Shown here: piece by piece, positions 4,176 through 39,420 of the stretch
Layout: every line of letters begins with the position of its first letter
Position numbering within the stretch: the stretch's first letter is position 1
Virus record (IMG/VR): IMGVR_UViG_3300027659_000072
Span: 1-41,941 of that record
DNA: 41,941 bases
DNA from: a virus
Reading direction: 5' to 3' (one strand)
Notes under the pieces: generated by a model
What the model was told of the DNA's origin: nothing
What the model saw: the letters and a program-made list of their open reading frames with translations, nothing else
Database searches by the model: none
Translations under genes and position numbers: made by a program

Positions 4176-4354
4176 ATCGTTTTTTTATAGTCAATAAAAA
4201 ATCCTATCGCCACAATGATGTTCATGCCACACGACATTAGTATCTCGTGGATGTCAGCATATACATTCATTGATAAATGTACATGACCAACCATCCAAAA
4301 AGGTATGGATAAGTTTTGGCTCACCCATACCAATAGATATCTTACAAAGTGCAT
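4172..4354 (-). CDS. small membrane-associated protein, 60 aa
   Basis: I take the ATG at 4354, which overlaps the TGA of the upstream gene by one base (TGATG), rather than the TTG one codon earlier. The protein has an amphipathic hydrophobic N-terminal half and a hydrophobic C-terminal helix (IIVAIGFFI) before a basic KK tail, so it is probably membrane bound. No family recognised. Confidence 0.55.
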   Translation of the reverse strand: MHFVRYLLVWVSQNLSIPFWMVGHVHLSMNVYADIHEILMSCGMNIIVAIGFFIDYKKTI

Positions 4355-4806
4355 CAAGGAGCAACCACATAGTTATATGCACTTGTGCTTCCTGACATCT
4401 TGAACTCATATGTTTCTGATTTACATGTAGTATCATTAATTCTTACCTTTACTGATGAAGCACTTTTGAAGCTAGATAGCATCTCATGTGTTGTCAAATT
4501 GTCTACAAAGAATACTGTCTCATTATCATCAGAGACATAACAATCTAATAGATTGTATTTTTGATATACCCCGTTAACCAAAAAGGACATGTCTACATTT
4601 ACAATATCATCACATATGTATACACCTCCAATATAAAAAGATATTTCATTATTATAATTCTCAAGTTTTAACCATTGATTTTTAGCAACATTAGTATATG
4701 CAATCTTGTATGGAGTATCAAATCCATTGTCAACCTTTTTGGTTACCCATTGTGAACTTGCTGTATAGCTTAGTGCTAATCCTATTGTCATTAATAAAAT
4801 TTTCAT
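4354..4806 (-). CDS. exported hypothetical protein, 150 aa
   Basis: Residues 1-19 form a signal peptide (MKILLMTIGLALSYTASSQ). The mature part is beta-rich with Cys residues that could form a disulfide in the periplasm (YICDD, LLDCYV, TTCKSE). No family recognised. It is the second exported protein in this block and is coupled to a small membrane protein by a one-base overlap. Together they may form an envelope-acting pair; that is inference. Confidence 0.7.
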   Translation of the reverse strand: MKILLMTIGLALSYTASSQWVTKKVDNGFDTPYKIAYTNVAKNQWLKLENYNNEISFYIGGVYICDDIVNVDMSFLVNGVYQKYNLLDCYVSDDNETVFFVDNLTTHEMLSSFKSASSVKVRINDTTCKSETYEFKMSGSTSAYNYVVAP

Positions 4807-4872
4807 ATTATAATTTATTTAATTGCGCCTACTCTATAAGGTTTTCAGCGTCCCCTTTCACTCGTAATGAAT

Positions 4873-8367: not shown

Positions 8368-8724
8368 TTATTGGTTAATAAATTTAGCTGTGTAATCTTT
8401 GTCTGAAATAGCCTTGTAGTTATCAGTATCGAACGGGTTCTTTACTACGTTTCTGAACTCCCTACCATTAGGCATGCTGTACTCTATGACATAGCCGTGT
8501 ACAGGTGAATAGTTTACAAAGTATCCATCCCTGTCCGCTTGATTTCTGAACACCTGTACGTTGTTATTTTGTACAAGCATCTGTACCTCTCTCATTGTAA
8601 AGTCTACGAGGATTGTCTCGTGTTCTAGCACACATTCTAACGTTACTCTGTTACCGATTATCTCGTGTACCTTGTGGTCACGACCTTTCATATCTCTGTG
8701 GTTTACATTTACGATTGCTCTCAT
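8368..8724 (-). CDS. hypothetical protein downstream of hammerhead 1, 118 aa
   Basis: Mixed alpha/beta protein (MRAIVNVNHRDMKGRDHK; ETILVDFTMREVQMLVQNN; GYVIEYSMPNGREF). No family recognised. It is the first gene after the hammerhead ribozyme at 8742-8798: cleavage would leave a 23-nt leader containing AAAACCTAGAA before the ATG at 8724. Its expression from a processed mRNA is therefore expected. Confidence 0.7.
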   Translation of the reverse strand: MRAIVNVNHRDMKGRDHKVHEIIGNRVTLECVLEHETILVDFTMREVQMLVQNNNVQVFRNQADRDGYFVNYSPVHGYVIEYSMPNGREFRNVVKNPFDTDNYKAISDKDYTAKFINQ

Positions 8725-8741
8725 GTTTTCTAGGTTTTATT

Positions 8742-8798
8742 GGTTAAGACGGCACATCTATATGCCGTTTCGGATATTGAATCCATCATCAGTTAACC
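8742..8798 (-). ncRNA. hammerhead ribozyme 1 (type I)
   Basis: On the minus strand: stem I GGTTAA with TTAACC, core CTGATGA, stem II GGAT/ATCC with loop TCAAT, core GAA, then stem III ACGGCA/TGCCGT with an 8-nt loop, and cleavage site GTC. Cut expected between 8748 and 8747. It differs from the other three in one respect: an extra U sits between CTGATGA and stem II, where a G-C pair is normally found directly, so its activity may be lower. It lies directly after the stop codon of the 73-aa gene. Confidence 0.8.
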
Positions 8799-9020
8799 TT
8801 ACATAAATTCTTCGGGTGACATATCTCTTAGCTCCTCCTCTGTAAACTTCAACAAGTCTTCTAGCTTGTCTCTATCAACGTCAATTATGCCGTGTATTGG
8901 ATGCTTGATGTCGTTGATGCCCACAAGGTTTATGTTGCGGTTCAATTGCTCTCTGATGGTTATCTCTCTGATGTATCCATCGGTCTTGTGGAAGCCGATG
9001 TTGTTCATTCGCTCGTTCAT
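8799..9020 (-). CDS. hypothetical protein upstream of hammerhead 1, 73 aa
   Basis: A small protein with a basic-polar N-terminus (MNERMNNIGFHKTDGYI) and an acidic helical C-terminus (KLEDLLKFTEEELRDM). No family recognised. TAA at 8799-8801 abuts the first base of stem I of hammerhead 1, so the stop is preserved on the 5' cleavage product. Leader is AAAAAATAGAAATT, a variant of the block consensus. Confidence 0.65.
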   Translation of the reverse strand: MNERMNNIGFHKTDGYIREITIREQLNRNINLVGINDIKHPIHGIIDVDRDKLEDLLKFTEEELRDMSPEEFM

Positions 9021-9025
9021 AATTT

Positions 9026-9175
9026 CTATTTTTTAATAATGTTAAATACTCCATACTTGTGGCTTCCTTGAGCCATCAATTGATTTCGCTTCCAATAGCA
9101 TAATGCCATATTTGGAAAGTAATAGCTCTCATATATAGTCGAGCCATTAATGATGTATTGCAGTTGATATATCAT
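9026..9175 (-). CDS. hypothetical protein, 49 aa
   Basis: From ATG at 9175 to TAG at 9026; the start overlaps the TGA of the 31-aa gene (ATGA). Aromatic-rich soluble protein (QYIINGSTIYESYYFPNM; WKRNQLMAQG). No family recognised. The TAG forms part of the next gene's TAGAA leader. Confidence 0.6.
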   Translation of the reverse strand: MIYQLQYIINGSTIYESYYFPNMALCYWKRNQLMAQGSHKYGVFNIIKK

Positions 9176-9267
9176 GGCTTTGTATTTAAGCTAATAGTGA
9201 CATATATAATCATAGATAATGATAAAATCATTAAGCAAACACCGATATATGTTGTTATATTATCCAT
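9172..9267 (-). CDS. single-helix membrane peptide, 31 aa
   Basis: From ATG at 9267 to TGA at 9172. One hydrophobic helix (about residues 7-26, IGVCLMILSLSMIIYVTIS) spans the membrane. An ATGA overlap with the next gene supports translation. The leader is a poly-A stretch ending GAA, a degenerate form of the block leader. No family recognised. Confidence 0.5.
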   Translation of the reverse strand: MDNITTYIGVCLMILSLSMIIYVTISLNTKP

Positions 9268-9281
9268 TTCTTTTTTTTTAG

Positions 9282-9521
9282 TTAATTATTAATTATTGCA
9301 TAGCGTTGGTTAAATTGCTCTTGAGTTACCTCACTATTCTCGATGCCTAAGTTGAACGCCACCTCAGTTATGAATTCCTCGTTCTCAGGGTTCAAGATGC
9401 TGTCAGGCCAATAGCCAGTGCATGTTTCGGTCTCTTTGACCATAGCGCAACCGCTTATCGTTGCTATTAAAATTGATATGCTTATGACTATCATTGCGAT
9501 TAAAATTGATATCGGTTTCAT
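9282..9521 (-). CDS. lipoprotein-like small protein, 79 aa
   Basis: I choose the ATG at 9521, preceded by AAAACTAGAACCT, over an upstream in-frame start that lies inside the previous gene. The N-terminus is a hydrophobic signal (ISILIAMIVISISILIATI) followed by SGC, a plausible lipobox, so the mature protein may be lipid-anchored. The rest is acidic and helical (NPENEEFITEVAFNLG; EVTQEQFNQRY). No family recognised; an envelope function such as exclusion is possible. Confidence 0.6.
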   Translation of the reverse strand: MKPISILIAMIVISISILIATISGCAMVKETETCTGYWPDSILNPENEEFITEVAFNLGIENSEVTQEQFNQRYAIINN

Positions 9522-9526
9522 AGGTT

Positions 9527-9676
9527 CTAGTTTTGGTACCACGCCTCGTCAAACATGTAGTTATAACGATTCGTGATATAGTTGATAAAATTGTTTAAGT
9601 GACCCTCGTTTGAGAATTTTTTCTTCATAACGACCTGCTTTCCGCTGATGTTTATGAACGTCAGTACTACCTCCAT
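9527..9676 (-). CDS. hypothetical protein, 49 aa
   Basis: From ATG at 9676, overlapping the end of the 35-aa gene by 10 bases, to TAG at 9527, which is embedded in the leader of the lipoprotein-like gene. Product MEVVLTFINISGKQVVMKKK then a helix (EGHLNNFINYITNRYNYMF). It resembles a two-strand/helix mini-fold. No family recognised. Confidence 0.6.
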   Translation of the reverse strand: MEVVLTFINISGKQVVMKKKFSNEGHLNNFINYITNRYNYMFDEAWYQN

Positions 9677-9774
9677 GCTCTTACTCTTAATTTGTTAGTT
9701 CTGATTAATACTCCCTCGTTGTAGAAGCCCCATATCTCGAATGCTCCCTCGATTTTAATGATTTTACTAGTCAT
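9667..9774 (-). CDS. mini-protein downstream of hammerhead 2, 35 aa
   Basis: From ATG at 9774 to TAG at 9667. It reads MTSKIIKIEGAFEIWGFYNE and ends with a basic LRVRAWR tail; likely two or three beta strands. It sits 24 nt after the predicted cut of hammerhead 2, with the full AAAACCTAGAA leader. No family recognised. It is short, but the leader and coupling to the next gene support translation. Confidence 0.6.
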   Translation of the reverse strand: MTSKIIKIEGAFEIWGFYNEGVLIRTNKLRVRAWR

Positions 9775-9792
9775 TTTTTCTAGGTTTTAATT

Positions 9793-9849
9793 GGTTAAGA
9801 CAGCACCTTGCGAGTGCTGTTTCGTCTAGCTAAGACTCGTCAGTTAACC
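9793..9849 (-). ncRNA. hammerhead ribozyme 2 (type I)
   Basis: Minus strand order: stem I GGTTAA, CTGACGA, stem II GTCT/AGAC with loop TAGCT, GAA, stem III ACAGCAC/GTGCTGT (7 bp) with a 7-nt loop, GTC cleavage triplet, TTAACC closing stem I. All invariant core positions (CUGANGA, GAAA, GUC) are present, including the G-C pair at the base of stem II. Cut expected between 9799 and 9798. It begins one base after the stop of the 34-aa gene. Confidence 0.92.
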
Positions 9850-9850
9850 T

Positions 9851-9955
9851 TTAGATAGAGCAATGTACTCCTACGGTCATTACGTTGTAGATGATAACTA
9901 CTGCTAATAGAATTACACCGCTTAAAAAAACGATTGGGGCTTTCTCAGTTTTCAT
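9851..9955 (-). CDS. membrane mini-protein downstream of hammerhead 3, 34 aa
   Basis: From ATG at 9955 to TAA at 9851. A short charged start (MKTEKAP) precedes one membrane helix (IVFLSGVILLAVVIIYNVM). It lies 22 nt after the predicted cut of hammerhead 3 with leader AAAACCTATACA, a slightly changed copy of the block consensus. No family recognised. Confidence 0.6.
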   Translation of the reverse strand: MKTEKAPIVFLSGVILLAVVIIYNVMTVGVHCSI

Positions 9956-9971
9956 TGTATAGGTTTTAATT

Positions 9972-10021
9972 GGTTAAGACGCTTCACAGCGTTTCGGTCA
10001 TTGAGACCTCGTCAGTTAACC
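9972..10021 (-). ncRNA. hammerhead ribozyme 3 (type I), overlapping a coding region
   Basis: Minus strand order: GGTTAA, CTGACGA, stem II GGTC/GACC with loop TCAAT, GAA, stem III ACGCT/AGCGT closed by a GTGA (GNRA-type) tetraloop, GTC, TTAACC. The full catalytic core is present. Cut expected between 9978 and 9977. The last 12 codons and the stop (TGA at 9984-9986) of the 49-aa gene lie inside this ribozyme, so a translating ribosome would unfold it. Confidence 0.93.
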
Positions 10022-10133
10022 TTATCATTTTAACTATTGCTATTACATCTTCAATGTTTAATTTTTCAACACCTCTTTTATTCATATACTCAAGATGTGA
10101 TAATACTTGCTCTAATGTGATTTCGCTTTTCAT
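9984..10133 (-). CDS. mini-protein downstream of hammerhead 4, 49 aa
   Basis: From ATG at 10133 to TGA at 9984. The first 38 residues (ending IAIVKMIR) are a normal helical mini-protein (MKSEITLEQVLSHLEYMNKR). The tail LTDEVSMTETL is encoded by the stem I, core and stem II/III sequence of hammerhead 3, so it is fixed by the RNA rather than the protein. It lies 24 nt after the predicted cut of hammerhead 4 and is the first protein gene of the whole leftward block. No family recognised. Confidence 0.65.
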   Translation of the reverse strand: MKSEITLEQVLSHLEYMNKRGVEKLNIEDVIAIVKMIRLTDEVSMTETL

Positions 10134-10151
10134 AAGTTCTAAGTTTTTATT

Positions 10152-10203
10152 GGTTAAGACGACCCGAAGGCCGTTTCGTCCACTAAGGACTCGTCAGTTA
10201 ACC
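10152..10203 (-). ncRNA. hammerhead ribozyme 4 (type I), promoter-proximal
   Basis: Minus strand order: GGTTAA, CTGACGA, stem II GTCC/GGAC with loop TTAGT, GAA, stem III ACGGCC/GGTCGT (one G-U) closed by the stable TTCG tetraloop, GTC, TTAACC. The catalytic core is complete. Cut expected between 10158 and 10157, giving a 24-nt leader before the ATG at 10133. Being first in transcription order, it would free the whole 5' leader RNA from the early mRNA. Confidence 0.93.
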
Positions 10204-10205
10204 TT

Positions 10206-10450
10206 ATCAGATGCTATCTGATAGATTCTATATTGTTTCGTGCCTCAAGCCTTTGGTTATGCTATTTGGCGATAGTGTTACGCACTACCTCTGTCTATTT
10301 TCGGTGTTTAACCTCCTGCTTGACCGCAGTCCCGATACTAATACCCTCGAGGGGGGAGTGACCTGTTTGTCAAGACCTACTGAATTTCAGTCATAACGGG
10401 GATTGCCGATTCGCCCTTCAAAATCAACCTCGGCTCGTTTGCCGACATTA
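10206..10450 (-). ncRNA. structured early leader RNA, released by hammerhead 4 (candidate)
   Basis: No convincing gene lies here. On the minus strand it contains a series of perfect hairpins: CGGC/GCCG (10431-10444), ACTGA/TCAGT (10379-10391), CCCTCGAGGG (10344-10353), AGTG/CACT (10274-10286) and ATCAGAT/ATCTGAT (10206-10222). GC content is higher than around it. If transcription of the leftward block starts near 10460-10480, hammerhead 4 would cut this RNA off as a separate molecule of about 250-300 nt. A 23-codon frame (ATG at about 10449) exists but has no supporting evidence. Confidence 0.45.
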
Positions 10451-10504
10451 CTATAACTCCATTTGTTTATAAATGTTACAATTTGTGTGAAAGTTTTTTT
10501 TCAA

Positions 10505-10533
10505 TTGACACGTTATTATTACAAATATATGAT
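10505..10533 (+). promoter_or_regulatory. sigma70-consensus-like promoter (candidate)
   Basis: TTGACA at 10505-10510 is followed after exactly 17 bases by TATGAT at 10528-10533, a near-perfect match to the enterobacterial housekeeping consensus. Bacteroidota use a different -7/-33 promoter, so this may be chance in AT-rich DNA. It would transcribe rightward through the repeats toward 11017, leaving a leader of about 470 nt. Confidence 0.3.
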
Positions 10534-10896
10534 GTATCTTGCTGTATATCAATGAGTTACGAGGACAAAAAATAATTAAAAAAAGTTTGTTATTTTTTTG
10601 TAACGGCTGTTGTTATCCCCTCACTACAGCCGTGCGATTGGTTCAGATGCATTCATTTCGGTCGGTCGATTGGTCGACATATCGATTGGTCTCAATGCGT
10701 TTCTATTTAACATAATGCAAATTATAGTACAACATTTTTGGGCGGTAGGTCGGTCGGACTATCGGTCGGTCGGCTGATAGATGGTCATCAGAGGTAGCAC
10801 AGGTGTAGTGGTAGCGATGGCTGTAGTGGTATCAACTGCACAGCGGAGGTGCATAGCTACGCCCTAGGAAAAGCTAGAAAATTCTGACTCAATAGA

Positions 10897-12568: not shown

Positions 12569-14128
12569 ATGATAGTAAAACAAGTCTATTTTGGCGATGA
12601 AGGCCAGAAAAAATTAAAAAACGGCATTAAAATTATCGCTGGGGCGGTAAAAAGCACCTTGGGTGCCAGAGGTCGGACGGTATTAATAGAGTCAGAGAAC
12701 CACGTAGGTGGTATTACCGTAACAAAGGACGGTGTGACGGTTGCAAAGTCGATCAACCTGTACGACCCCACCGAGAACTTGGCCGTTATGATGATGCGTC
12801 AGGCGGCAGACAAGACATCGACAGTTGCTGGTGACGGAACGACCACCTCGATCGTATTGGCAGAGGCAATAATCAATTCAGCAGACGAGCACGTTGAGCC
12901 AAACACTAACGTGATAGAGGTGATACGTGAGATCAACGACATCACGGCATCTGTTGTGGCTAGGCTTAGCAAGATGAGCAAGAAGGTCACTGGCAAGAAG
13001 CTGTATGACGTGGCATCTATCAGTGCAAACAACGACAAGCATATCGGCAAGATGATCTCTGACGCATTCAGCGAGGTTGACATGGTTACCGTGGAGAACA
13101 GTATGAACTCTGAGACTCACGTAGAGATTATTAGTGGAATGAAGATAGATCGTGGATACACGTCTAAGTACTTCATCAACGACCACAAGAAGCAGGAGTG
13201 TGTGCTAGACAATCCATACGTACTGATCACAGATCACGAGATAAACAACCTATCAAACCTAGAGTCTATACTGGCTCCAATTGTTAGTCAGGGTAGATCG
13301 TTATTGATCATAGGCACGCTTGGTCAGAACGCAGTGAACACACTAAATGTGAACGTGGCACAGGGCAAGATCAAGGCCTGCAATATTATACCACCATCGT
13401 TTGGATATAGGAAGAAGGACCTGCTAGAGGACCTAGCCGTGGCACTTGGCGGTACGTACCTCTCAGAGGACACTGGAGACGACCTAACACTTATTTCTAT
13501 GTCTGACCTAGGAAGAGCATCCAAGGTCGTTGTGAAGAAGAATATGACGGTATTTATGAACACATCAGAGATGAAGGATGCCATCGACATGAGGGTGGCT
13601 GACCTGAAGCACCAGGTGTTGGAGACTACAGACGTAAACGACAGAGAGTTCTTGAAGGAGCGGATTGCAAACATATCTGGAGGTGTTGGCGTTATATATG
13701 TTGGTGCGCTTAGTGACATCGAGCAGAAGGAGAAGAGGGACAGGATCGATGACGCTGTGTGTGCGGTGATGGCTGCGATGGAGGACGGGATACTTCCTGG
13801 AGGTGGTGTTGCACTGCTGAACTGCTTAGACTTGGTGATGGGCGACAGCATAGCTCAGAACATAATGTTCGATACCTTGAGCTCACCATTTAATCAGATA
13901 CTTATAAATGCAGGCAAGGACCCACATGCTATTAAGCTAGAGTTGGCAGGCATGGGCGAGGGATATGACGTAAAGAACGAGGTGTACGGTAACATGATGA
14001 AGATGGGCATTATAGACCCAACGAAGGTTACTAAGAACGCACTGCTTAACGCTGTGTCTGTGGCAACAACAATTATGAGTACAAACGCAATTATAACAAA
14101 CATAAGAGACTATGAAGGTTCTAAATAA
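12569..14128 (+). CDS. groEL: phage-encoded chaperonin GroEL (Hsp60)
   Basis: The 519-aa protein aligns by eye over the full group I chaperonin: KLKNGIKIIAGAVKSTLGARGR near the N-terminus, the ATP site GDGTTTSIVLA at about 88-98, and RIDDAVCAVMAAMEDGILPGGGVALL at about 392-417, whose Asp corresponds to the residue that drives ATP hydrolysis. It is about 25 residues shorter than bacterial GroEL and lacks the GGM-repeat tail. In the cell it should form a folding chamber, presumably for capsid or adhesin proteins that the host chaperonin handles poorly. Base and codon use are more G/C-rich than in neighbouring genes, which suggests separate acquisition. groES follows with a 17-base overlap. Confidence 0.95.
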   Translation: MIVKQVYFGDEGQKKLKNGIKIIAGAVKSTLGARGRTVLIESENHVGGITVTKDGVTVAKSINLYDPTENLAVMMMRQAADKTSTVAGDGTTTSIVLAEAIINSADEHVEPNTNVIEVIREINDITASVVARLSKMSKKVTGKKLYDVASISANNDKHIGKMISDAFSEVDMVTVENSMNSETHVEIISGMKIDRGYTSKYFINDHKKQECVLDNPYVLITDHEINNLSNLESILAPIVSQGRSLLIIGTLGQNAVNTLNVNVAQGKIKACNIIPPSFGYRKKDLLEDLAVALGGTYLSEDTGDDLTLISMSDLGRASKVVVKKNMTVFMNTSEMKDAIDMRVADLKHQVLETTDVNDREFLKERIANISGGVGVIYVGALSDIEQKEKRDRIDDAVCAVMAAMEDGILPGGGVALLNCLDLVMGDSIAQNIMFDTLSSPFNQILINAGKDPHAIKLELAGMGEGYDVKNEVYGNMMKMGIIDPTKVTKNALLNAVSVATTIMSTNAIITNIRDYEGSK

Positions 14129-15820: not shown

Positions 15821-16081
15821 ATGGCATATCAAAAATTACAAGTAGGAAGAGTTAGTGCAGTAGTACCTAGCGACACAGTTGACATTCCATATGTTGGAGA
15901 CGCAACATCTGTTTGGCCGTGTGTATTATATTCTGGGTCTGGTGGTGACATAAGAGTCATGACCGCAGGTGGTGATGACGTATTGTTTGTAGGTGTACCT
16001 GCTGGGTCATTCCTACCCGTACAAGTTATAAGAGTATTCGCTACAAATACAGCTGCTACTGACATTATGGCTTGTTGGTAA
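15821..16081 (+). CDS. spike-base-like protein (Rcc01079 type), 86 aa
   Basis: Starts at ATG 15821, four bases after the previous stop. The pattern VVPSDTVDIPYVGDATSVWP, then GDIRVMTAGGDDVLFVGVPAGSFLPVQV and a final TDIMACW resembles the small beta-sandwich proteins that anchor spikes in gene transfer agents (RcGTA Rcc01079) and many phages. It would join a receptor-binding spike to the virion. The next gene, a repeat adhesin, starts on the last base of this one (TAATG), which fits a base-plus-spike pair. Confidence 0.7.
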   Translation: MAYQKLQVGRVSAVVPSDTVDIPYVGDATSVWPCVLYSGSGGDIRVMTAGGDDVLFVGVPAGSFLPVQVIRVFATNTAATDIMACW

Positions 16082-17235
16082 TGATACAGATAGGAATAAA
16101 TATAGCAGTCAATGGAGAATCTATTACAGCACCTTTGCCTCCTCCTTCTGTATATTTCACTACTACATGGACTACTACAGCTCCAAACGAAACTATAACT
16201 CTACCTTATGATGCAGCAGGTACTTATTCAGGAGGTATAAATTGGGGAGATAGCAGCATATTCTTTACTCCAAATAGTTTTGCTAACAATACTCATACTT
16301 ATGCTGTAGCAGGCACTTATACAGTTCAAATAATTGGTGATTGTATTGGGTGGAATTTTGGGGCCTATGCGGGCTCAACTTATATTACCTCAATAGTGCA
16401 TTGGGGGCAGCTTCAGTTAGGTGCTGACACAGGAGCATATTTTGATGGCTGCCCTAACTTAGATTTATCATCAGTATCTGATGTACTTGATTTAACAGGA
16501 ATAACTAGTTTAAACAGTATGTTTGGTTCATCAGGTATAACTACAATTAACAACATTAATCTTTGGAATACAAGTGGGGTTACTAGTATGGTTGCTATGT
16601 TTCAATCTGCTAGCTCTTTTAATCAAGCCTTGAGTTTTGATACTTCAGCAGTTACTAATATGAGTAGCATGTTTGGTGGTGCTATCTCTTTTAACCAATC
16701 ATTGACTTTTGACACAAATAATGTTACTAATATGAGTAATATGTTTCAAGCTGCTATCTCTTTTAATCAGTCATTAAGTACTTTTGATACAAGTAATGTT
16801 ACTAATATGGGTTTCATGTTTAGAAATGCTTTCTTATTTAACCAATCATTAAGTACTTTTGACACAAGTAATGTTACTAATATGTTTAGAATGTTTAATA
16901 ATGCTACATCATTTAATCAGCCATTAAGTACTTTTAACACAAGTCAAGTTACTAATATGGCTAGTATGTTTAATGGAGCTGATGCTTTTGATCAAAACAT
17001 AGGTTCGTGGAATGTGGCCAATGTTACAGGTTTTATGACTTTTATGAACTCTAAAACACCTGCCACTTTTTCTACTGCTAATCTTGATGCTATCTACAAT
17101 GGATGGAGTGCCTCAGGAGTGCAAGCAAATTGTAATATAAGTTTTGGTACAGCTAAGTATACAGTGGCAGGAGTAGCAGGTAGAGCTATACTTACAGTTG
17201 TTAATACATGGACTATAACAGATGGAGGATTGTAA
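16081..17235 (+). CDS. BspA-like (DUF285) repeat adhesin, putative receptor-binding protein
   Basis: I place the start at ATG 16081, overlapping the previous stop, so the protein has 384 aa. After a Pro-rich start, residues about 25-80 (ETITLPYDAAGTYSGGINWG, ending TYAVAGTYTVQIIG) resemble a PKD-type beta domain. From about 135 onward come repeats of about 25 residues of the form FDTSNVTNMxxMFxxAxxFN, the DUF285/BspA leucine-rich-like repeat best known from bacterial surface proteins that bind host molecules. In a phage this is probably the tip that contacts the cell surface. The repeats share DNA identity, so copy number could change by recombination. Confidence 0.8.
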   Translation: MIQIGINIAVNGESITAPLPPPSVYFTTTWTTTAPNETITLPYDAAGTYSGGINWGDSSIFFTPNSFANNTHTYAVAGTYTVQIIGDCIGWNFGAYAGSTYITSIVHWGQLQLGADTGAYFDGCPNLDLSSVSDVLDLTGITSLNSMFGSSGITTINNINLWNTSGVTSMVAMFQSASSFNQALSFDTSAVTNMSSMFGGAISFNQSLTFDTNNVTNMSNMFQAAISFNQSLSTFDTSNVTNMGFMFRNAFLFNQSLSTFDTSNVTNMFRMFNNATSFNQPLSTFNTSQVTNMASMFNGADAFDQNIGSWNVANVTGFMTFMNSKTPATFSTANLDAIYNGWSASGVQANCNISFGTAKYTVAGVAGRAILTVVNTWTITDGGL

Positions 17236-35346: not shown

Positions 35347-38300
35347 ATGCCTGACTTACAAAGAACATTCCTTGCTGGAAAGATGAACAAAGATATTGAC
35401 GAGAGGCTACTGCCTGACGGACAATATCGACATGGGCTAAATGTTACCATAGACACATCTTCTGGATCTAATATAGGCGCACTTCAGAACGGATTGGGTG
35501 CGACAAAAGTATACCCTGTTACACAGGCAGTAAATAGCTTTGTCGGACAAGAGAGCGTAACCACCACCATAGGTGCGGTTTCGTATGAGGCTAAGAACCT
35601 TATATATTGGTTTATTACATGTCCTACATCAAACGCTATAATAGAGTACAATCAATCAAGCGGAACAACGTCAAGAGTACTCGAGTGCACTGTAGCTGGT
35701 GGTAACTATCTAAATTTTGACCCAAGCCAAATAATAACAGGTGTAAATTACTTAGAGGGAGAGATCGGTGATTCGTACTTATTTTGGACTGACAACTATA
35801 ATGCTCCTAGAAGAATCAACATAACAAGGTGCAAGTCTTATGGTGTAGACGATCCAAGAATTCCATTAGACATAAATGTTATTCTTAACCCTCCAATGAA
35901 CGCTCCGTACATATTACTAAGTAATGACAGTACAATCCAAACAAATAATTTAGAGGAGAAGTTTCTATACTTTGCGTACAGATATAAGTACATAGACAAC
36001 GAGTACAGCTCAATATCTCCGTTTTCTTCAGTTGCATTTGTTCCAGGCCAACTTAACATAGACTTTGAAACTGGTGACAATAAGGGAATGGTTAACACCA
36101 TGAACAAGGCTGATATTACATTCGAGACAGGAAATCAATTTGTAACAGAGATACAGCTGCTTGTTAGAGATACACGCAGCTTAAATGTAATGATTATCGA
36201 GAGCTTGAATAAGGCAAACATGTCAATACAAAGTAACAGTACGTTTAACTTTACATTTAGAAATAATAAAATATATGCTCCTATATCTACAGATCAGATA
36301 ACAAGACTGTTTGACAATGTACCGTTAAGGGCTCAGGCACAAGACATGATAGGGAACAGGTTGCTATATGGTAACTACCTACAATTTAGAAACATTGCAG
36401 ACTGCAATGACATTGGCATAAACATGAATTTTACTGTTAACTATGCATCATCTGCTGTTGTAAATACTTCATCTCCAAAGCCAACATTTAGAAGTGACAG
36501 GGACTACGAGGTAGGGATTATATATGGTGATGACTATGGACGTATGACAACGGCACTTACGTCTACAGAAACTAATTTTACAAACAGTAGCAGCAACGCT
36601 GTATACATTCCACCAATAAATTCAGATACAGCAAATAGTTTAATTGTTGAAATAAAAAATTCTCCTCCTTGTTGGGCTACAAACTATAGACTTGTAATAA
36701 AACAGGCTAAACAGACATACTACAATATATTTCCAAGGTTGTTTTATGCAAGTGGATCATTTAGATACTTTTTGATTAACGAGTCAGATAGAGACAAATT
36801 TAAGGTTGGTGGGTATTTGATATTTAAAACAGCTACTGGAGGTGCTACTCACGTAAATAAACAGTTTAAGATACTAGAGCTAGAACAAAAGGCGGCAGCG
36901 TTTATACCTAATGCTATCGAGGGTTTATATTTTAAGATTAAAATTGACTCAGGAGACGTATTTTTAATTGCTCCTACGGCACAAACTTGTGGTGGTACAG
37001 CTCTAGGAACTAATAACCCAAATCCTAATACACTAGCTATAGGATACACTGTTCCTGTACTTGTAAATAGTTCTAATGCTGCTGGAACTGGTGGATATGT
37101 GAACATGCAAGATAGATATACAACATCTCCTATATTTTATGGTAGTAGTACATCAGATGCAGGAGCAATAATTACTAGCTTTCAAGATCCAGGTATTCAA
37201 GCCATTGCTGGATTTAATGGTATAGGAGTTTCAAATCGTTTTTATGGAGGCATAGATTTAAGATATACAATACAGATAAGACCTGGAAATACGTACAGAT
37301 ATACTTCTGATGTTGCTGGTCTTATAGGGTGGTCAGCAGATATTCCAATAACTATAAATACATTACACTACATAAATCTACCTACTGGACAAACTGGCAC
37401 AGCTATTAACTTACCAAACTTAGCATTTGTAGTTAAATGGACTTCTACATCTGTATCTCTAGGAGATAAATTTATTGTTAATTGTAGATCTTTTAACGGG
37501 AATAATTATTTTAATAGTTCAAATGGTAATAATTTAGGATTATTAGAAACACACTACAAAAAAACAGGTGGTTTTGCAATAGTTAACTGTAACTGTAATG
37601 GACCAGTGTATGCAGGTGCATTAATATCAATTACAATAAAAAGAGATAAATATAATACAAATGCATATACAACGTTACAAACATTTCCTGCCTCTCAACA
37701 GAACTACAATAATATAGAGGAGTGGTTTATAGAGTCAGGGGCGTATTTATCATTTAAAGAATATGATAATAGTGGATCTGATATTGGTAGTCGTGGTGTA
37801 TGGTTTAGAAATACAACTGGTGCTGCACAAACACAAGTATATCCACCATATCCATCAATAGCAAATATTCAGCTATATAATTCAACTGCTGGAAATCAAG
37901 AAGCAACTAATTTTACATACAATAGATGGGATGGAACTAATGTAAAAATGTTTTTGAAGGGATATGGGAAAAGAGATGGAAATAATAAGCAAAACGTAAT
38001 TGAAACCTATTTTACAATAACACAAACACCCCCATCTAATTTTATTGTGTGCGAAACTGTTCCATCCGAGAATGATGTAGATATATTTCATGAACTAACC
38101 AAGACATATCCAATTATAAATCACAAACATATATCAAGGTGGCAGTATAACACAAAACAAAATGCTACAGGATTTACTAGGTTAACACAAACAGCTAAAA
38201 CTCAACCACATTATTTTACTGTTGGAGAAAAGGTATATGTAAATTCAGTTGGAATAACACCAACAACATTATACACAATCACTGCTGTACCTAGCAGATA

Positions 38301-39420
38301 CGCTATAGTTATAGACCTTCCGTTCCCTGGTGGACCAACAGTTCCTGGAGGCGTGGCATACACTATTGGTGAGAAAGATCAAACGTCTGTAACAAATGGT
38401 GCAACAATACAATTAAATCATCCAGACTCTGTAAACAGTGACTACAATGCCTTTTGTTTTGGGAATGGCCTAGAGTCATACAGGATTAAGGATGACTATG
38501 CGAATGCAACCATGGGCTATAGTCCAAGAGTTACAACAATAATAGAGGACTACTCCGAGCAAAATCAATTTGCATCGTTAACCTATAGTGGAATATTTAG
38601 GGGTGACTCATCTGTAAATAGACTAAATGAGTTTAACCTATCACTTGCAAATTTCATGAATTTAGACAAGCAGTACGGGCCTGTAAGAAAGCTACATGCT
38701 AGAGACTCAGATCTATTGGTTTTGCACCAAGACAAGGTCACATCTGTATTGTATGGTAAGAACTTACTAGTTGATGCTCTAGGAGGTGGTCAGGTAGCAT
38801 CTATACCAGAAGTACTTGGTAATCAGATAGCATATCCAGGGGAGTACGGTATAAGTAATAACCCTGAGAGCTTCGCTTATAATGGAAGTGATATTTACTT
38901 TACAGACGAAAAGAGAGGTGTCGTATTAAATTTAACTGGAAATCAAATATCTAGTATATCGTCAAATGGGATGACAGACTACTTTAGAGACTTAATGATC
39001 GACACAACGAATAAGCAAAAAATAGGAGGTTATGACCCATACAACAGAGCGTATGTAATTTCTTCTAATCAAATATCATCAATACCTTGTGAGTTGTCAT
39101 TGTTTCCAACTCAAAAATCAGTTGGATCTGCAATAGGTGGTACTCCTATATTTTTATTTGCTGTTACCACACCTCAGCCTACTTGGGGTATACAATTAAT
39201 TGACAATGGATTTGGGACAAATTGGGTAACTTACTTTTTACCTCCAGGAGGATACGATCAGTTTATATGGGGCAACGTAGCTCCAAACAATACTGGAGCA
39301 GTAAGAAGCGTTATATTCCAAGTCGGTTATTGTGGCGGAGTTAAGCAATTTATATTAACACAGGGTAGTGGTACTCTTATTGGAATAACAAACATTGTAC
39401 TAACAAAACCAACATCTTAA
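35347..39420 (+). CDS. large tail muzzle/nozzle-type protein, 1357 aa
   Basis: MPDLQRTFLAGKMNKDIDER followed by LLPDGQYRHGLNVTIDT is the hallmark start of the largest tail protein of many Bacteroidota phages, including crAss-like phages. Long stretches (about 50-330 and 1020-1260) look like beta-propeller blades, as in nozzle proteins (LHARDSDLLVLHQDKVTSVL; GGYDPYNRAYVISS). The centre (about 540-900) is a Thr/Asn-rich beta insertion. It would close the short tail and steer DNA release. Base composition drops to very AT-rich in the insertion compared with both ends, which hints at a foreign insert. The assignment as muzzle versus 'stabilization' protein is uncertain. Confidence 0.7.
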   Translation: MPDLQRTFLAGKMNKDIDERLLPDGQYRHGLNVTIDTSSGSNIGALQNGLGATKVYPVTQAVNSFVGQESVTTTIGAVSYEAKNLIYWFITCPTSNAIIEYNQSSGTTSRVLECTVAGGNYLNFDPSQIITGVNYLEGEIGDSYLFWTDNYNAPRRINITRCKSYGVDDPRIPLDINVILNPPMNAPYILLSNDSTIQTNNLEEKFLYFAYRYKYIDNEYSSISPFSSVAFVPGQLNIDFETGDNKGMVNTMNKADITFETGNQFVTEIQLLVRDTRSLNVMIIESLNKANMSIQSNSTFNFTFRNNKIYAPISTDQITRLFDNVPLRAQAQDMIGNRLLYGNYLQFRNIADCNDIGINMNFTVNYASSAVVNTSSPKPTFRSDRDYEVGIIYGDDYGRMTTALTSTETNFTNSSSNAVYIPPINSDTANSLIVEIKNSPPCWATNYRLVIKQAKQTYYNIFPRLFYASGSFRYFLINESDRDKFKVGGYLIFKTATGGATHVNKQFKILELEQKAAAFIPNAIEGLYFKIKIDSGDVFLIAPTAQTCGGTALGTNNPNPNTLAIGYTVPVLVNSSNAAGTGGYVNMQDRYTTSPIFYGSSTSDAGAIITSFQDPGIQAIAGFNGIGVSNRFYGGIDLRYTIQIRPGNTYRYTSDVAGLIGWSADIPITINTLHYINLPTGQTGTAINLPNLAFVVKWTSTSVSLGDKFIVNCRSFNGNNYFNSSNGNNLGLLETHYKKTGGFAIVNCNCNGPVYAGALISITIKRDKYNTNAYTTLQTFPASQQNYNNIEEWFIESGAYLSFKEYDNSGSDIGSRGVWFRNTTGAAQTQVYPPYPSIANIQLYNSTAGNQEATNFTYNRWDGTNVKMFLKGYGKRDGNNKQNVIETYFTITQTPPSNFIVCETVPSENDVDIFHELTKTYPIINHKHISRWQYNTKQNATGFTRLTQTAKTQPHYFTVGEKVYVNSVGITPTTLYTITAVPSRYAIVIDLPFPGGPTVPGGVAYTIGEKDQTSVTNGATIQLNHPDSVNSDYNAFCFGNGLESYRIKDDYANATMGYSPRVTTIIEDYSEQNQFASLTYSGIFRGDSSVNRLNEFNLSLANFMNLDKQYGPVRKLHARDSDLLVLHQDKVTSVLYGKNLLVDALGGGQVASIPEVLGNQIAYPGEYGISNNPESFAYNGSDIYFTDEKRGVVLNLTGNQISSISSNGMTDYFRDLMIDTTNKQKIGGYDPYNRAYVISSNQISSIPCELSLFPTQKSVGSAIGGTPIFLFAVTTPQPTWGIQLIDNGFGTNWVTYFLPPGGYDQFIWGNVAPNNTGAVRSVIFQVGYCGGVKQFILTQGSGTLIGITNIVLTKPTS

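Follow-up and report, generated by a model that had tools for sequence, protein, structure and literature searches.

Four elements on the minus strand of a virus genome stretch are probably self-cleaving type I hammerhead ribozymes (HHRs) that act as punctuation between the cistrons of one early transcript. The window, by which we mean the whole stretch of DNA analysed (41,941 nt, or 42 kb; IMGVR_UViG_3300027659_000072, positions 1-41,941), holds all four within 1.5 kb, where the first-pass annotation had already placed complete hammerheads:

10152..10203 (-), HHR1, type I hammerhead, predicted cleavage 10158/10157, at the operon head
9972..10021 (-), HHR2, type I hammerhead, predicted cleavage 9978/9977
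9793..9849 (-), HHR3, type I hammerhead, predicted cleavage 9799/9798
8742..8798 (-), HHR4, type I hammerhead with an extra U after A9, predicted cleavage 8748/8747

All four read CUGANGA, GAAA and GUC in that order and have GGUUAA/UUAACC as stem I, and the stem II pairs listed earlier are likewise present. The one extra U of HHR4, between A9 and stem II, recurs in other loci; a viroid hammerhead with an extra core nucleotide is cited in PMC6155905. The topology is type I throughout, with an open stem I, loops closing stems II and III, and covariation, and for each of the four the minimum-free-energy fold is the hammerhead secondary structure, leaving the leader unpaired. Stem III had been described as 5-7 bp long; the stem is there, but it extends to 8 bp in two of the copies.

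At Rfam's curated thresholds there is no hammerhead match in the window. Hammerhead_1 (RF00163), which has the type I order and core in common with the window HHRs, reports HHR1 alone (10153-10203, 29.2 bits, E 1.2e-4, short of the gathering score of 34) and not HHR2-HHR4. A gathering threshold is a curation limit and not a defining biochemical feature, and the lack of a match points to limits of the stock models rather than to an absence of HHRs. Because the stock models miss the window HHRs, we built our own covariance model from 22 HHRs (alignment A1), all on contigs other than the window, and its matches in the 42-kb window are exactly the four HHRs (E 8e-18 to 6e-12; 78 bits for HHR2). 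These matches support the reading of the four elements as real HHRs with an RNA structure under selection. RAGATH-1-hammerhead (RF03152) has the hammerhead core and a similar 3' side, and scores 26.1 bits at HHR3 and 31.5 bits in L133; we rejected membership in this family, given scores of 26.1 and 19.9 bits against a gathering score of 56.3 and an upstream hairpin that is not kept.

Selection on the RNA structure had been proposed from covariation among the four copies, and it stands up in a wider comparison. A search pattern that requires no pairing in its variable parts (GTTAACTGANGA..CGAAAC..GTCTTAAC) is present in at least 119 IMG/VR stretches; among the matches listed, the descriptor gives 152 distinct HHRs, and 32 of 90 loci carry at least two, with a maximum of seven in one stretch. 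Of 134 unique pattern matches, 92% have a paired stem II (4 bp or more) and 93% a paired stem III (5 bp or more), compared with 21% and 23% in a control in which halves were swapped between elements, which excludes chance. In alignment A1, double changes are found at 9 of 15 pairs and 99.4% of cells are paired, a value to which selection by the descriptor contributes. Related phages keep the pairing, with compensatory changes in the stems. How constant stem I looks among the seeds is in part a product of the search pattern. That search did not pick the four window copies, however, and of 24 elements that miss the seed on other grounds, 19 still have GGTTAA/TTAACC. Since stem I is short and no tertiary partner is recognised, the speed of cleavage is uncertain. 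Across the HHR set, stem I almost invariably has an A on each side (130/131 and 131/132), and the sequence of loop II resembles UNARU; these features may reflect a tertiary contact between loop II and stem I.

The pattern occurs in only 4 contigs among 84,980 species genomes, so lytic phages are its likelier home, and prophages were rejected as its main setting. Restriction to Bacteroidota was rejected as well: SD-like motifs at similar spacing stand in some HHR leaders elsewhere, the pattern turns up on MAG contigs from other phyla (stray phage contigs may have entered those bins), and there are HHRs in Pelagibacter phages. Family scans of 95 HHR-preceded proteins assigned few functions, namely two DUF932, one ArdC-type and one anti-restriction PHROG.

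The genes, leaders and likely promoter around the four HHRs are as follows:

10522..10552 (-), likely early promoter, TTG-N20-TATATTTG, Bacteroidota-type
10204..10510 (-), noncoding-looking leader ahead of HHR1, its upstream part conserved in relatives
10134..10157 (-), 24-nt leader of HHR1, UUAACCAAUAAAAACUUAGAACUU
9984..10133 (-), 49-aa ORF after HHR1, reads through HHR2 and stops (TGA) in stem III
9956..9977 (-), 22-nt leader of HHR2, cleavage site to ATG
9851..9955 (-), 34-aa ORF after HHR2, hydrophobic stretch by eye
9775..9798 (-), 24-nt leader of HHR3, cleavage site to ATG
9667..9774 (-), 35-aa ORF after HHR3, homologues in 23 loci
8725..8747 (-), 23-nt leader of HHR4, cleavage site to ATG
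8368..8724 (-), 118-aa gene after HHR4, marginal PHROG match

The first-pass annotation had each HHR directly before a mini-gene, which is true of HHR1-HHR3 (49, 34 and 35 aa) and fails for HHR4, whose 118-aa gene matched no known family beyond the marginal PHROG match. The gene-sized pieces it envisaged would likewise amount to two fragments only, since the piece between HHR3 and HHR4 contains six ORFs and the RNA past HHR4 is the remaining operon.

Upstream genes usually end at or within the ribozymes. HHR4 begins directly after a TAA, and the C-terminus of the 49-aa ORF is encoded inside HHR2. Across the wider set (146 cases), about 86% of upstream stops fall between -6 and +10 relative to where the HHR begins; in many cases the HHR itself supplies the stop, as the TAA of GGTTAA (n = 42) or the TGA of CUGA (n = 22), and GGTTAACTGA contains a stop codon in each of two reading frames out of three. 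About half of the stops fall inside stem I or the core. With the stop at or inside stem I or the core, there is no room for a promoter between the genes, and on the minus strand from 5095 to the operon head a full match to TTG-N20-TANNTTTG is found nowhere except at 10522-10552. This single match supports one transcript, as far as a motif can, without proving it. At the place of window 10204-10510, relatives carry several unrelated-looking leader types, and the 23-aa ORF at 10377-10448 is probably no gene. A block at 10701-10732 (-), TTGTACTATAATTTGCATTATG, is conserved in more than 15 loci and is probably a promoter or small RNA; a hairpin, ACGGCTGT..ACAGCCGT, lies shortly downstream of it.

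Leaders of uniform length (22-24 nt) had been noted at the outset, and we measure 24, 22, 24 and 23 nt from cleavage site to ATG. Over the whole set, this distance has a median of 22 nt and falls between 18 and 28 nt in 83% of cases, versus 7.7% at random positions. HHR leaders have A at -12, -13 and -3; in F. johnsoniae, A's at -12/-13 and -3 favour initiation, and start regions are unstructured from -20 to +20 (PMC6847099). The predicted pairing of the first leader bases drops after cleavage. The same leader, often with TTAACC at -23/-24, also precedes many HHR-less genes of the window, and before HHR-less genes in relatives TTAACC is enriched at -27..-19 (24 observed, 3.9 expected; 75 against 11.8 in a wider set in which a few unrecognised HHRs remain). 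We therefore rejected leader conservation as evidence specific to HHRs, and the ribozymes are unnecessary for translation of the many operon genes that use this leader without one. The shared leader also explains why stem I is invariant: its 3' strand, UUAACC, doubles as part of the leader, leaving stems II and III free to change.

From these observations we infer that cleavage takes place in the cell, and from the same features when it would happen and how it would affect stability and translation. RNA polymerase would start near 10515 and read leftward, and each HHR would fold as it emerges and cut itself co-transcriptionally after GUC. Two hairpins would be left as a 3' tail on the upstream mRNA, whose stop codon, lying at or within the ribozyme, would be retained. 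The downstream mRNA would start with a 5'-hydroxyl and, freed from stem I, an A-rich leader about 22 nt long, in which UUAACC, paired before cleavage, would become accessible; such a length would just suffice for a ribosome on an SD-free message. Among the observations that count against punctuation are the many operon genes that use the leader without an HHR, the six-ORF piece between HHR3 and HHR4, and the lack of HHR4 at the orthologous gene in relatives, where none of 13 homologues of the gene it precedes was found with an HHR ahead of it.

At orthologous junctions, HHRs are gained, lost and swapped between genomes. Many relatives keep HHR3 ahead of their orthologue of the 35-aa ORF, with stems that differ and compensatory changes that keep the pairing. 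HHR presence or absence varies between close relatives, stem II and III modules reappear in new combinations, and within one genome HHR flanks and leaders are nearly identical. An HHR follows gene g9020 in the window and in L083, L035, L045 and L060, and the next genes mostly differ, so HHR and leader together also behave as a cassette boundary. It could be that this is their main role, early genes being shuffled by homologous recombination and self-cleavage rendering the junctions harmless without being selected for regulation. All of the shuffling just described favours such a reading, but a pure recombination site needs neither core nor pairing, both of which are kept despite the divergence of stems II and III, and HHR-less genes shuffle too, with the leader alone. 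We consider it unlikely as the main explanation, and punctuation by cleavage remains our preferred one.

At the operon head, the window has HHR1, L003 has an HHR, and 8 of 13 virus records have a different element, which we call X. X is a conserved three-way-junction RNA (for example L074:1497-1549, + strand) with P1 of 7 bp, P2 and P3 of 4 bp each, and AAUGA-like and AGCGAUA loops. Double changes are found at 10 of 15 pairs, including in P2, which the search did not require. It occurs once per genome, at the head of the early operon, in L006, L035, L037, L050, L072, L074, L079, L128, L129, L146, L148, L150, L154-L156 and L166, and in most loci its end lies 21-25 nt before the ATG. In L074, ORF2 is 97% identical to the 34-aa ORF of the window, and X stands where the window has HHR2. 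In L128, L129, L074, L037 and L133, none of the Rfam models (twister, twister-sister, pistol, hatchet, HDV and hammerhead) matched X at E up to 1, and a tRNA was rejected, as ARAGORN calls none at X. X is a lead towards a further RNA class, and there is some small chance that it is an undescribed self-cleaving ribozyme and that these phages use interchangeable ribozyme classes as mRNA-end punctuation. Upstream of X in L006, L050, L070, L072, L147, L148, L154 and L156 is an element Y, whose covarying outer stem NNCTTG/CAAGNN surrounds a T-arm-like hairpin, GATGG-TTCGATT-CCATC; ARAGORN calls no tRNA at Y either.

Since X keeps the spacing of the HHRs without known cleavage activity, folding alone might be what matters: the hairpins would guard the 3' end of the upstream cistron and would have to keep out of the ribosome zone (-20 to +20), which is the region unstructured at F. 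johnsoniae starts, and cleavage would be incidental. A protective hairpin, though, needs none of CUGANGA, GAAA and UH, which are exactly kept, and an uncut stem I would mask the start of the leader, so that we regard folding alone as very unlikely. Much the same can be said for gating by translation, in which a ribosome terminating at the HHR or reading through it keeps it unfolded and cutting reports on translation upstream. Such gating would fit the roughly half of stops that fall in stem I or the core, as well as the 49-aa ORF that traverses HHR2, but overlaps of this kind may be mere genome compaction, and HHR1 follows a noncoding RNA, which means that the rule is not general; we give gating slender odds. 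That the elements are chance resemblances or decayed, inactive motifs, as their scores under the Rfam gathering thresholds might suggest, is scarcely credible given the independent covariance model and the compensatory changes, and chance resemblance is refuted.

Clustered phage HHRs, and the idea that they cut polycistronic phage RNA, have been known since 2011. In the parts of Perreault et al. 2011 (PMC3088659) drawn on here, multiple HHRs flank genes in prophages, and a long phage RNA is proposed to be processed into operon- or single-gene mRNAs. Two statements of the first-pass annotation, that phage hammerheads usually occur singly and that such an expression system was undescribed, are thereby corrected. 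In the same parts, three loci cleave in vitro, one of them also in E. coli, and 4 of 18 consensus HHRs are inactive in vitro (PMC3088659). The window resembles those prophage clusters in having at least two same-strand HHRs, here four, flanking genes; unlike them, as far as those parts of the paper describe (PMC3088659), it has a fixed stem I and leader, fusion to the stop codon and a uniform distance of about 22 nt. According to a 2017 review, HHRs flank ORFs that encode small, unknown proteins, and what they do in phages is an open question (PMC6155905). As far as the open-licence literature was searched, the stop-to-start fused format with its fixed leader, the spread of this format and the swap with X are new.

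Other phage HHRs share parts of this arrangement. The HHphage element of haloviruses HF1/HF2 is like the window HHRs in lying 13 nt upstream of an early-gene start codon, and has a mapped 5' end within three nt of the cleavage site; unlike them, it is single-copy, has an archaeal host and contains inserted core nucleotides. Flavobacterium phage elemoC 14-1A has an HHR (44 bits, E 1e-8) about 28 nt before the start codon of gp69, with GGCAAA/UUUGUC as stem I and, unlike the window, no UUAACC leader. The annotated gp68 of elemoC (L137:8938-9045; NC_062743 16937-17044), which runs antisense to this HHR and overlaps it, is probably spurious. Pelagibacter phages HTVC019P and Jormungand have, as the window does, a type I HHR in the early region, but with GCAAAA/UUUUGC as stem I and no UUAACC leader. 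The Pelagibacter HHRs (L138:2948-3008 and L139:4220-4280) lie upstream of regulator, integrase and RNA polymerase genes.

Under the punctuation model, ribozymes rather than promoters or RNases would set phage mRNA ends where hosts initiate without Shine-Dalgarno pairing. The model comes with testable rules (a fixed distance from cleavage to start, a stop codon within the ribozyme, stem I as leader, and gain and loss at orthologous junctions among close relatives), and elemoC, which grows on Flavobacterium sp. BAL314, is a cultured relative that carries an HHR.

As for the phage itself, its portal and virion proteins are nearest to those of Flavobacteriia podoviruses, and comparing the DNA of the window region with that of named phages gave no match. 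The window encodes a GroEL-like chaperonin at 12569-14128 (+) (PHROG E 3e-128), and the related MW202828 also has groEL together with a 10-kDa chaperonin. A 1357-aa protein at 35347-39420 (+) carries a crAss muzzle domain (PF25731) at its N-terminus, in a phage whose closest kin are otherwise elemoviruses, and a 387-aa protein at 16072-17235 (+) strongly matches DUF285 repeats (E 1e-55), a family whose name comes from Mycoplasma. A DUF805b RNA (RF02914, 38.9 bits) lies at 4826-4858 (-), upstream of a 150-aa gene (4354-4806), and is also present in L128.
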